From contig OZ017770.1 of NCBI GenBank assembly GCA_963969345.1, forward strand, positions 3,605,246 to 3,669,245: DNA of 64,000 nt, written 5' to 3'. Below are positions 47,965 through 53,900 of this stretch, one piece after another (within the stretch, counting starts at the first letter, position 1; each line of letters begins with the position of its first letter). Source of the DNA: Turbatrix aceti (lineage: Eukaryota > Nematoda > Chromadorea > Rhabditida > Panagrolaimidae). The notes below the pieces were generated by a model. It ran no database searches and was not told the origin of the DNA. It was given only the letters and a program-made list of their open reading frames with translations. The translations under genes and the position numbers were made by a program.

Positions 47965-50900
47965 ATGGACTCGAAACCATCGCAGCGCCAGAAGCAACAA
48001 GAGGAGGAATGTCGACAAGCGGACCTCCTCATCGAAGAGACTGAACGGGCCCTCGCAGCGAATCCCGAAAACGACCTTCTTCAAATTGAACTCGCGAATC
48101 TAAAAGCTCTCAAGCAAAACATCGAAGAACAACCGGAAATCAATGCTATCACGCACGACTCAAACGAAGGCGAATTTGAAATCTTGTCGCTGTACTCCAT
48201 CTCGGACAGCGATGACGAGGACATAAAAAGCGACGAGCTCGAAGAAGGAGAAATCCCGTACGAAGACGACCAAGCATATCCCACTGATACCGAGGAAATA
48301 GTTCATCAACAACAATGCGACGAGGACGACCTAACGTATTTCGAAGCTACGAATGAATTTGTTGCTCCTATCATCTACCGCAGCGTTAAAGAGCGCACCC
48401 CTACGCCGGTGCCATGGAAAAACGCCCCGTCGCAACACAAGCCAAAGCATCACTATCCAGAATCTCGGAAACGGTCTCACCAAGCCCAAAAGAGCAGATA
48501 CCCGCACCCGTATCAACGCAATGAAAACGAGCACCGGCACAGAAAATCGCAGCAACCCGTCGACTTTTATATGCTCGGACACGGCACACACGCTAGCAGA
48601 CTCAAACCGTTCAACGGCTTGAACAGCCAACCGTTCGAATTTTGGAAACGCGATCTCGAGATCGAGATGACCGCTGCCGGACTGCCCTTTACAGAAGCCC
48701 GTAAAGTTGCTTATTTGGCACACAATCTCGACGGGCCTGCAAAGGCAAAGTTCCACGCACTCGACGACAATACGAAAGCCGTGTATGAGGAAGTAGTAAA
48801 CGCACTTACTGCCGCTTTCCCCACAGCAAACACTATTGCAACGGCGTACACAAGACTGCAGGAATCACAACAACGAAGCGAAGAAACAGTCGACGAATTT
48901 CTGTCCCGACTCGAAGAACTTCTTCGGGCAGCGTACCCCAACGCAGACGACGCAACGATCCAGCGAGACGTCATTCGCGAATCGCTAAGCCGCCTCAAGG
49001 CAGAAATTCGATCCGTTGTTTACGCCGAGATGCCATCCACGGTGGCGGAACTCAAGAGAATTGCCACGAGACAAGAGCGATTGTTAAGCTGCAAACCAAA
49101 AGAACTAACCGTGCAAGTTATGGCAGTTAACCAGACGACACCTCGCACCTGCTATGCATGTCAGCAACCAGGGCATCTCCTCCGAGATTGCCCCAACGTC
49201 AATATTCGCACGCGGTACCCCCAGTACCTACACAAACCTCGGAACAGTTTTTTCGGAAACCCGCCGCGAGGATCATATCATCCGAACCCGACATATCCAA
49301 CCGGATACAATTCACAGCAGCCGCCGATGGCAGCCCAATCGCAGGCACGTCCCTACTGGAATAATGGGCAAAACCAACGACAAACTCCGCCGTTTGAACC
49401 CCCGGTCTACGCATCGCGTCAGCACTGGGGCTACGGGCAACATCTGAACAACCAATTCCAACCTCCTCGCCAGTACTGGAACAATATGACAACGCAACGC
49501 CAACCTAACGCGTTTCGAAACCCAGCATACGCGCCACGGCTACATTGGAATGCCGAAACCGAGCAACAACAAGTTTCAGCACCACACGGCCATCGCAATG
49601 GGCACCAGGGACAGGCACAACCACGGGCCGAACAACCACAAATCCGGTTTGCAAGAGTTGGTAATATGGAAACGGCTCCTGTATGGCAATGCGTAGATGA
49701 GGCTGATGTAAACGAAAGTGCTATTGACACAACCGAGGAACTGACAAGCAATGAAGCTGAGGAAGTGGAAGCAGCCCCTGTCACAGACCACCCCAGAACG
49801 GCAACGTACTCGCCTCGTGGGTCATGGGCAAACTTGTTTTTGTTGATCGCGATGCTCCCTCTATGGACGACAGCACAAATGATATGCCCACCAACCGCAC
49901 CTGACACACTCGTAAAGTTGCCGCACGCCGCGAGATGCAAAATACCGCCGCTAACAAACATAACCCCTCGGTCCTACGAATTAACAATATACCGACCAAA
50001 CACAATCAGGTACAAAACGAAAGCTCAACACTGCACATGTTGGACGACACGATCTACGCAGTCGCGAACGTTCCTAGGAACCCTAGTATCAACGACAGCG
50101 ACAGAACCGAAAAACTTGTCGGTCAAGGACTGTGAAAACATGATCAAACTGCATGAAAGCCCCGCAGGCCGTCTCTTCAACACGACGCACGCTTGGACCA
50201 CAAACAACACGACACCTACACCACAACGACCGTGGCCACTCTGGTTACTAACCGAAGTCCAAGAGGTTTCTAACTGTGCCCTGGCAGACACCTATGTTTA
50301 CGCAAAATACGGAGAAAACAACATACTAGCTCAACCGAATCCCGAAAAACCATGCGACTATCACGCTGAGGAATGCAGAGTCAATAACGCGAACATATTG
50401 ATCTGGAAAGCCATTGAAGAACAAAATTGCCGGTACGTAACCATGGGACAATTCGCAGGCAGCTTCACCCCAGGCTTATGGATGTCATCAAGCCATGGGG
50501 TAGCACTGACGTTCCAAAACACCATGAGGGTATTCAACTGCCATAAAATACTCTACATCACTGACCAAGGCTTCGCGATAGAAGCAGCACAATACCACGA
50601 TCTCAAGGATCCCGAACCCAGAAGCCGAGGCAAAAGACAGGACAGCGGCCCGGTACCTTCCACGCAACTGGCAGCCGAGCTGACAGCAGTCAAAACCGAC
50701 GTGTCAAATATGTTGAAGCAGTCCTTCTGGGCATCAGCACAAGCGGCTTGCAAAAGAATCGAATTTCTCACCGAAACGATAATGACCCTGGCAGCAGCTA
50801 ATCCCACTCTCCTAGCCAGACAATTACTTAACACCACAGCAATCGAAGCAGAGTTAGTCGCTGCCGACATTCTTCAAATTCGCACATGCATTCCGGTCAC

Positions 50901-53900
50901 GATCAATGAAACTATAGATCTACAACAGTGCTACGACAAACTACCGGTCAAGTGGTCACGAGAAAACCACACAGGCGATGGATTCTTAGACGAAGTAACA
51001 AACATCATCCATCCTACGGCGAACAGAGTCAATTGCGGACAGCCAACACGTAAAAATACAAGCAAAATACAAGAAATCCCACTCTTCGGAGAAGACGCAT
51101 GGCAATGGCAAGACATCGACGTTACTGTCCCCAACCTAGTACTTCTAAATTGGTCCGAAATCTACAACTTCGAAAACCAACACATGTCCAGCACCAGTAT
51201 ATTGTCAAAAGCCGCAATACAGGAAATTTTTCCACATGTTCCAGTCGAAGAACTGGCTCCAAAACTGAAGGACTTTGTAGAAGACATGATAAAGCCACCC
51301 TGGCTTCGAACGCCGACCATCTTCGAGCTCTGGACTACATTGTGCTGTTTGTACGTCACCGCGACTATCGCGCAACATGCACTTATTCAACAACTAGTAA
51401 ATGCTTACTTACCCGCCTTCACCCGACCTGTTCAAAGAACGCCTACACCATTGCCCCCAAACTACCGGCTCGTCGACCTTCAAACAAGTAAACATGTAGT
51501 CCAACTGCCTAGAAGCCTTGCTTACGCTAAAGGCAGAATCAACGGCCGAACCGTGGATGCACTATTCGACACAGGAGCGACGCTCAACCTCATTTCGAAG
51601 GCCGTAGCAAAATCGTTAAACATTAGGATCAAACCCTTGCGAACCGAAGTACAAGTTTATGGGCTAAATAACAGTGTAACAGCTATCGGAACGGCGAATG
51701 TAAACATTTATTTTGGTAATTGGTTTACTACAATACCTCTAATCATTCTGCAAACGGCTCCGTCATCATGCGCCCAAGTTATCCTCGGTGAACCAGCCTT
51801 ACAGCGATTTCGAAAAATGACTTTCGACTTTGACCGCATGCTACTGTCCATCACAAACGGTCCTACCATACCACTCTTTACCCCTTGCGAAGGCTTCACA
51901 GTCGAACTCAATGCCGTCGCCAACAATGCCACTGGATACACCCTGATCATCCCGATGCTGTTGGAAAATACAGCCACAACCTCAATGATCGACACGGGCG
52001 CGGCAATGTCAGCTATTTGTCAATCAAAAGCTGAGGAACTACGGCTTCCCATCATGCAAGCAGAAGGAGAAGCACCAACTTTGAATGGACTGGCCAGCGC
52101 TCCGACAAAGACAACGGGTTACGTTGAACTTTCTGCCACAATTGGAAAAAGAACCTGGAAAACAACTGCCCTCGTTGTCCCAAATCTCAAAACGACTTGT
52201 AGCGAATTCATTGTCGGTTGCAACCTGCTGTGCAAAATGCCACCCCTCACGGTAGACTATGACAAACGCACAATCTTTGTCGGCAAACAACAAATCGATT
52301 TCCTCTTATCCACCAAAGACGACCCAACATTGAAACCAACCAAAATGACCGAGTTAGTCCTGCCCAGGACGCAGTTGCCAGAAAACGCAGAAAAAGCCCT
52401 AGCCAATACCATCGTCAAGAATTTTCAAGTATTCAGTCTCGACAACCTTGACATCGGAAAATGCAACATAGTGGCTCCCCCAATCCGAGTCACGACAAAT
52501 AAACCGACCAAAACGGCTCCATATCGTGTCGCCGCTACGCTTCAAAAAGACGTCAACCAATACATTTCTGACATGCTCAGTATCGGGGCACTAGAACCCT
52601 CAAATACCCCATGGACGTCCGGAATAGTCGCAGTACCAAAAGCAAATGGTAAAACAAGAGTATGCGCTGACTTACGGCGACTAAACTCCGTCATCGAAGA
52701 CGACCCTTTCCCTTTACCTCGAATCGAAACATTGCTGCAGAAAACTGCAAAGAAAAGATGGTATTCCGTCATCGATCTTTCTTCCGGATTTCACCAAATA
52801 CCATTGACCGAAGAATCATCTTGGTTGTGCGGCATCGTCACGGAATCAGGAGTCTATCAGTACAAAACTTTGCCATTCGGTCTCAAGACGGCTCCCGCAA
52901 TATTTTCCAGAGTAATGTCAACGGTATTACAAGGACTCGAGGACATCGCTCTAGCATACATCGATGATATCATAGTCTTTACCGAAGCAACCGACCCGCT
53001 CTGTCATATCCAAGATCTTGATAAAGTCTGGCAACGACTAATTCAACATGGACTCAAGATAAACCCTGATAAATGTCAATTATGCCGGCATACAATAACA
53101 TACGTGGGCCATGAGATCCACTCAAAGGGATTCTCACCCTCGACGGCGCACACCGAAGCACTCATGAAGTATCCTCAACCTTCGTCAGCAACAGAAGTGC
53201 GAAGATTCCTTGGACTGGCAAATTTTTTTCGCCGTTTCATACCGCGGTTCGCAGAAATCGCAGCTCCCCTCGTTAACCTCACCAAAAAGACCACCCCTTT
53301 CGAATGGAACAAAATCCACATAGCGGCATTCCTCACACTAATAAAACAACTGACAGCGAAACCAACGCTAATTCCTCCAGATTACAACAACCCGTTTGAG
53401 GTATACACCGACGCTTCCGATATGGGCCTGGGTGCAGCAGTCTTGCAAAAGGACGCAAAAGGAATCGCTCACGCAGTTGCCTACCATTCTCGGCAATTTA
53501 GCACAACCGAACGAAACTACGCAACTACCGAGAAAGAACTTCTAGCACTAGTGGACACTCTTCACCATTTTCGGCCACTCTTATACGGTACCCGAATCCA
53601 CTGGTATACGGACCATCGCCCTTTGACACACATTACTACGGAAAAATCAAAGTCCACCAGACTCAATCGATGGCTGTTAACAATACAAGACTTTGCAATA
53701 ACGCCAGAATACTTGCCGGGCCACACAAATGTGCTAGCTGACTCACTTTCACGAATTTCGCCAGCCAGAACCAACTTAACCGCGCTAGACATGAATTCCA
53801 CTAGCCACTCGACAGGATCCCAACAAAAAGCGGTTCTCAACGCGATGCGAGACGAGTGGACAAAGCCAATCACATTAGAACTCAAACCATTCTGGTTGGT

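Follow-up and report, generated by a model that had tools for sequence, protein, structure and literature searches.

A Ty3/gypsy-type retroelement of Turbatrix aceti with a predicted class III fusion glycoprotein between gag and protease

The genome plan of retroviruses and env-bearing retrotransposons is commonly treated as nearly fixed, with env placed 3' of pol and Env made from a separate message. Here we describe a long terminal repeat (LTR) element of the nematode Turbatrix aceti in which a predicted class III membrane-fusion glycoprotein is encoded between gag and protease, in the same open frame as both. The element lies in a 64,000-nucleotide stretch of contig OZ017770.1 (C6:3605246-3669245, forward strand; hereafter the window, whose coordinates are used for the element), within a searched genome of 59.9 Mb in 28 contigs, in which genes for a BK channel and prolyl 4-hydroxylase indicate an animal host and the relatives of the element point to a nematode.

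Errantiviruses and gypsy-type elements share with the window element a Ty3/gypsy identity and an env gene, and in errantiviruses env lies 3' of pol. The window env, in contrast, is of predicted class III and sits between gag and protease in the same frame, as it does in its relatives. Errantivirus env likely comes from a baculovirus (PMC12440569), whereas the single Pfam match to the window env, at E-values up to 1, is Monjiviricetes_fusion. Atlas virus, a hookworm belpaovirus, is likewise a nematode LTR element with a captured RNA-virus glycoprotein and one uninterrupted polyprotein, but it belongs to the Belpaoviridae, its glycoprotein is phlebovirus-like and of class II, and its env stands at the C-terminal end of a Gag-Pol-Env frame (PMC9094657). 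Anakin of mosquitoes is an LTR element with a captured chuvirus-type glycoprotein, as here, yet its pol is of BEL-Pao and not Ty3 type; Roo, Tas, and Cer-7 carry env downstream of the polyprotein, and in the available portion of that paper we found no gag-env-pro-pol order described for Anakin (PMC7642597). Cer1 of Caenorhabditis elegans, a Ty3-type element from a nematode, has gag and pol in a single frame, as in the window, but CERV, the additional protein of Cer1, comes from a spliced message and serves in nuclear RNA export, and is thus not a glycoprotein placed between gag and pol (PMC3315495, PMC10309623).

Compared with these systems, the env of the window element is not last, as in Atlas virus, but precedes protease and pol. 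Nor does its pol resemble that of BEL-Pao elements: the frame matches the Ty3-type gag, gag-asp_proteas, and RT_RNaseH models, and no BEL-Pao-specific model is among the Pfam matches listed for it. Nematode Polinton/Maverick elements reportedly carry a fusogen, as Widen et al. are said to have described in 2023; in T. aceti the glycoprotein family of the window element also occurs in Polinton-type loci, but these are DNA transposons and their env has its own frame. Single-polyprotein nematode elements with a captured glycoprotein, and chuvirus glycoproteins in LTR elements, are therefore already known. A search of titles and abstract openings, mostly outside subscription journals, yielded neither a gag-env-pro-pol retroelement nor a class III glycoprotein of this kind in a Ty3-type nematode element.

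The window element and its env

The element spans 46617-55521, with 5 bp (ATTTG) duplicated on both flanks. Its features are as follows.

46612..46616, no strand: target-site duplication, left copy ATTTG (same 5 bases at 55522-55526)
46617..47197, +: 5' LTR, TG...CA, 581 bp (from comparison with the 3' LTR)
47201..47213, +: putative primer-binding site TGGTGCCACGACC, just inside the 5' LTR (single match in the window)
47470..47901, +: coiled-coil-like stretch from ATG 47470, in the gag frame (weak coiled-coil Pfam matches only)
47956..49818, +: gag (Pfam: PNMA 6e-8, Ty3_capsid 7e-7, Retrotrans_gag 1e-6, zf-CCHC 1.5e-6)
48655..49113, +: capsid (Ty3_capsid match, Pfam)
49144..49197, +: CCHC zinc knuckle, residues 397-414 (Pfam)
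49819..51408, +: env, predicted class III fusion glycoprotein (Monjiviricetes_fusion, PF24664 match, and predicted fold)
49834..49890, +: internal signal-like hydrophobic segment at the env start (mean hydropathy 1.67)
50620..50640, +: RSRGKRQ, putative furin-like cleavage motif (from sequence; basic motifs near the same place in relatives)
51316..51372, +: putative C-terminal membrane segment of env (hydropathy 1.41)
51457..52311, +: aspartyl protease, two tandem DTG domains (gag-asp_proteas 5e-23, two stretches)
52633..53118, +: reverse transcriptase core (RVT_1 2.5e-35)
53380..53694, +: RNase H (RT_RNaseH 2e-34)
53977..54450, +: integrase, H2C2 zinc binding and core (Integrase_H2C2 2.6e-10, rve 3.6e-11)
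54969..55521, +: 3' LTR, 553 bp (LTR comparison)
55522..55526, no strand: target-site duplication, right copy ATTTG (matches the left copy)

This is a young Ty3/gypsy-type element; its two LTRs differ by 1 substitution and 28 bp of gaps. An open frame of 2330 codons (47956-54948, + strand) encodes, in the order of its Pfam matches, gag, env, aspartyl protease, reverse transcriptase (RT), RNase H, and integrase. Env aside, the succession Ty3_capsid, zf-CCHC, gag-asp_proteas, RVT_1, RT_RNaseH, H2C2, and rve is that of Ty3/gypsy elements (Metaviridae), and the TG...CA ends and 5-bp duplication agree with the LTR ends and 4-6 bp target duplications of that group. The assignment was made from domain order, gag type, and LTR ends, the trees described below holding in-genome RTs and one RT from Panagrellus redivivus. 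We presume that TGGTGCCACGACC at 47201-47213 has a primer-binding role.

The original prediction placed a glycoprotein-like segment of about 520 residues between the zinc knuckle and the protease, and the sequence bears this out. The env piece (49810-51447, 546 residues) contains 16 cysteines, 10 N-x-S/T sites, and an RGKR site at 50626-50637, and it matches PF24664 with an E-value of 6e-9 and 34.8 bits, above the curated cut-off of 27. In an alignment of 11 sequences drawn from two kinds of element, 11 cysteine columns are invariant; 9 of these lie in the N-terminal half of env, the part that aligns reliably. A hydrophobic stretch as strong as that near the env start arose in 145 of 5000 shuffles, which is modest by itself; because the PF24664 match exceeds its cut-off and the 11 cysteine columns are invariant, the env signal is more than chance. 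A single-sequence search with env gave no match among proteins up to about 930 residues, a sequence search of solved structures returned nothing in one run and two weak matches (E 0.63, 0.78) in another, and among the viral contigs searched 32 pattern matches were found and 0 confirmed.

A structural match to a viral fusion glycoprotein, sought as a check set beforehand, was found. In Foldseek searches with the env model, the best matches among solved structures (PDB) are to herpesvirus glycoprotein B (gB; best E 1.2e-17), and a viral library returned glycoproteins of rhabdo-like, orino-, nyami-, and chu-related viruses (best E 1.2e-26). The predicted fold is of class III, as in gB and in the G protein of vesicular stomatitis virus. 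The sequence profile and the predicted fold together identify env as a class III membrane-fusion glycoprotein, whose relatives include herpesvirus gB and the glycoproteins of chuvirus-like negative-strand RNA viruses.

Two flanking regions deserve mention. A motif, [V/I]RFA[N/D/R], at 49642-49656 directly precedes the env signal and is retained in families A-E; it may be the end of gag or a cleavage site. In the protease, the window family has two DTGA motifs in tandem at 51457-52311, domains that might form a single-chain dimer, and one DTGA-type motif was seen in single members of families B, C, D, E, and G and in the P. redivivus protein. The one family B copy inspected for this motif (L013, residue 1129 of the translated locus) reads DTAA, against DTGA in the other families inspected.

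Relatives in the genome and in other nematodes

A search of the genome with the env piece gave 44 matches: 12 share 96-100% identity with it and 32 share 25-40%, five of the latter in Polinton-type loci. Frame sharing was tallied by hand from the match lists for gag, protease, RT, integrase, and PF24664, which are lower bounds. At least 20 elements in seven families have env and pol in one uninterrupted frame, env lying 5' of RT in each. In at least 17 of these, from five families (A 4, B 4, C 5, D 3, E 1), gag, env, RT, and integrase share the frame; in three further elements (family H 1, family K 2) env, RT, and integrase do. In family H the zinc knuckle was seen upstream, and for family K no gag match was found in the gag list, itself a lower bound. 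In a further family C copy the frame takes in gag, env, and RT but not integrase, env again lying 5' of RT. By coordinates, each of the 25 RT matches of at least 41% identity is preceded within about 4 kb, on its own strand, by an env match, and RT matches of 31-39% are, group 2 excepted, mostly in frames of 948-1566 codons with no env match 5'. Broken or truncated env-bearing copies are also present; conservation of the order among other copies in the genome, a second check set in advance, is nonetheless evident.

Other loci show how such copies decay or vary. By eye, a family F copy (L029, C6:9451177-9455223) is an env element interrupted by another gag-bearing retroelement. The distant group 2 elements (L032, L033, L034) have a class III-type env with a long Thr-rich, mucin-like insert before the PF24664 part. 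At C6:10803778 an env match lies 3' of a Ty3 RT and integrase, with a decayed gag match 5' of these. We considered this locus as a copy with the usual gene order; it looks rather like the insertion of an env-less element within a damaged gag-env one, and the scores of its RT and integrase equal those of the env-less copies C4:544039 and C1:8851424 (from this locus the RT alone, L053, was fetched).

In a phylogeny of 19 RTs, ten lineages with env in the middle fall on one side of a branch and nine env-less elements of the same genome on the other. The branch has support of 96/93 and occurs in 94% of 200 bootstrap trees; groups 1 (A-H) and 2 (I, K) share its env-bearing side. Families G and J, without RT, are in neither this tree nor an earlier one, and the row C1:10443474 was left out of the 19-RT tree as a fragment. 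Because the tree has no named outgroup, it permits, but does not prove, a single origin of the env-in-middle order. The env of groups 1 and 2 align by profile (92% probability, 103 columns).

The glycoprotein family extends to the Polinton-type loci of the genome (hhalign 99.6%, E 6.7e-25, 237 columns), where env occupies a frame of its own, starts at its own ATG, and contains a coiled-coil-like insertion (L037, L059, L058, L035, L036, L038), and where the hydrophobic start exceeds a hydropathy of 1.5 in one of four. At C5:9981309-9997112 (L059) the glycoprotein accompanies an integrase match, a Pox_A32-type ATPase, and DNA polymerase B, and at C2:6.50 Mb a chromodomain-bearing integrase lies 5' of it; a polymerase match is nearby at one of the five Polinton-type loci seen, that on C5. 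The AlphaFold model of a Polinton-type env has a mean predicted local distance difference test score (pLDDT) of 33.5. One Polinton-type glycoprotein copy lies about 55 kb upstream of the window (C6:3549275).

Selection was gauged by simple counts of nonsynonymous over synonymous change (dN/dS) between the sister families C and D: 0.063/1.41, about 0.04, for env; 0.172/1.05 for part of gag; and 0.131/1.04 for protease plus the RT start, ratios that are rough, synonymous sites being near saturation. The C-E and D-E pairs rank the parts by dN as C-D does. By these sequence comparisons env is the most constrained of the three parts; between C and D, the fusion-subunit half of env is 93% identical and part of gag 70%.

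The full order recurs in a second genome. UniProt A0A7E4URW5 of P. redivivus (2285 residues) has gag at 255-458, CCHC at 445, env at 523-1050, DTGA at 1153, RT at 1335-1586, and integrase at 1817-2000, and its env shares 29% identity with the window piece and 37% with family B, values too low for the window genome to be taken as that of P. redivivus. Its annotation is affected: the entry is named only RNA-directed DNA polymerase, and the glycoprotein is also missing from its precomputed Pfam list. Partial orders occur in Meloidogyne incognita A0A914M9Q2 (942 residues; gag 129-304, CCHC 395, env 552-918) and in Caenorhabditis japonica A0A8R1HI7 (642 residues; env 123-321, then a protease-like end with a weak match, E 0.001). 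The gag-env-pro-pol order that had been proposed from the window alone thus holds in the window frame, in its relatives in the genome, and in the P. redivivus protein; for this genome and that one protein, it is shown to be a stable inherited design of an element lineage, not an accident of a single copy.

Expression and topology of the polyprotein

How Env could be made from such a frame is best explained, in our view, by an internal signal. One long gag-env-pro-pol polyprotein would be made, in which the hydrophobic stretch after gag would act as an internal signal sequence, leaving Gag in the cytosol and placing the Env ectodomain in the lumen of the endoplasmic reticulum (ER). The second hydrophobic stretch would stop transfer and return protease, RT, RNase H, and integrase to the cytosol. 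Signal peptidase, a furin-like enzyme, and the protease of the element itself would then cleave this chain into Gag, a fusogen of two subunits, and Pol, already attached to the same membrane, so that particles could bud with Env and move between cells. We consider it fairly probable that the window holds a Ty3/gypsy-type gag-env-pro-pol element with a class III Env made as one membrane-threaded polyprotein, and the internal-signal mechanism is the most likely route.

The hydrophobic profiles are consistent with this. In six families (A-E, G), env has a hydrophobic segment at its start (hydropathy 1.57-2.07) and at its end (1.41-2.11), enclosing 475-546 residues with 13-15 cysteines and 3-10 glycosylation motifs. 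Read as signal and anchor, the two segments would leave gag and pol cytosolic and env lumenal, with no need to move pol across the membrane. Flanking charges fit this topology at the first segment in five of the six families and at the second in four (with one tie). The original prediction of hydrophobic segments at both ends is upheld for the N-terminal one and holds less firmly for the C-terminal one, which is present in the window copy as a helix of the predicted model with pLDDT below 50. The prediction had also left two routes to Env, a spliced or internally started message and a membrane-inserted polyprotein. We searched the 600 nt upstream of env for TTT[T/C]AG, or four pyrimidines followed by CAG, after the 3' splice consensus of C. 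elegans, and found none in three of six families (L013, L017, L024). One polyprotein is favored because these splice-like motifs are absent in half of the families and differently placed in the others.

Several observations weigh against this account. Confidence in the env model is middling (mean pLDDT 63, predicted template modelling score 0.37, residues 411-546 below 50), template modelling (TM) scores are 0.14-0.37 among the matches listed in two Foldseek lists, the whole-chain root-mean-square deviation from gB is about 22 Å, and single-sequence PF24664 matches occur in only 4 of 11 env members (E 0.1). The C-terminal segment of the window env is weak (1.41, against 1.89-2.11 in five relatives), and the Lys plus Arg counts around the window family's segments (first segment: 2 before, 4 after; second segment: 4 before, 2 after) run counter to the topology at both, family C giving the tie at the second segment. 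The window copy carries a stop upstream of gag: a TAA at 47899-47901, in frame, splits the coiled-coil-like stretch from gag, so the uninterrupted frame described in the prediction stands from gag to integrase and is closed upstream. In two copies whose env is 100% identical to that of the window, C1:1816230 and C25:6902, the frame is open for 2514 codons. Lineage I splits env and RT between two frames, of 1606 and 870 codons, and the RT fragment C1:10443474 (frame 481), identical to lineage I, has no env match nearby; with that row in the earlier tree, the env label needs two changes. A polyprotein would also yield Gag, Env, and Pol in equal amounts, unlike in retroviruses. Finally, the splice-like motif is present in the window family itself: TTTCAG occurs upstream of env in three of the six families, 236 nt upstream of the env piece in the window, 416 nt in L028, and 269-270 nt in L030.

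These motifs would suit an element of the same order that makes Env from a subgenomic message, with cis-splicing from the leader or spliced-leader trans-splicing 5' of env giving an Env-Pro-Pol product from an internal start. An in-frame Met 12-48 codons upstream of env in five of six families agrees with such a start, and the Ty3-type Cer1 of C. elegans has a spliced message beside its gag-pol message (PMC3315495). The motifs are lacking or vary in position between families, however, L028 has no in-frame Met within 80 codons upstream of env, and all 20 tallied elements have a frame open from env to RT, 17 of them from gag onward, a continuity that splicing would not need; we regard this route as unlikely, though it is the main competitor. 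A smaller probability attaches to the proposal that Env is kept to hold Gag-Pol on internal membranes, for assembly or germ-line movement, retaining a viral fold as a fusogen no longer infectious. A membrane-attached polyprotein could indeed serve assembly whatever the activity of Env, and the spread of copies within one genome needs no infection. Against it, the fusion-subunit half is the most conserved part tested, and the ectodomain cysteines, basic motifs, and predicted class III fold are kept across families, beyond what a tether needs. An assembly error, or chance insertion of a glycoprotein gene into one copy, has the unexpected position of env in its favor and nothing else; in view of 44 env matches, 20 uninterrupted multi-domain frames, occurrence on several contigs, purifying selection, and the independent P. 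redivivus protein, it is scarcely credible.

Extending the membrane-threaded polyprotein further, we tentatively suggest, with slightly more doubt than conviction, that it would cross the ER membrane twice in the manner of alphaviruses and flaviviruses, delivering equal capsid, fusogen, and enzymes on one membrane; that the arrangement would have arisen once and be old, with RTs down to 32% identical and more than one nematode species involved; and that the fusogen would be shared with Polintons, serving two unrelated kinds of mobile element.

A conserved lineage of elements that carry env within gag-pol represents another workable genome plan for retroelements. It makes testable the idea that fusogen, capsid, and polymerase can come from one membrane-threaded polyprotein, and it bears on how retroelements become infectious. 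The presence of one predicted class III fusogen family in both LTR and Polinton-type elements of a single nematode genome is a hint of exchange between unrelated elements.

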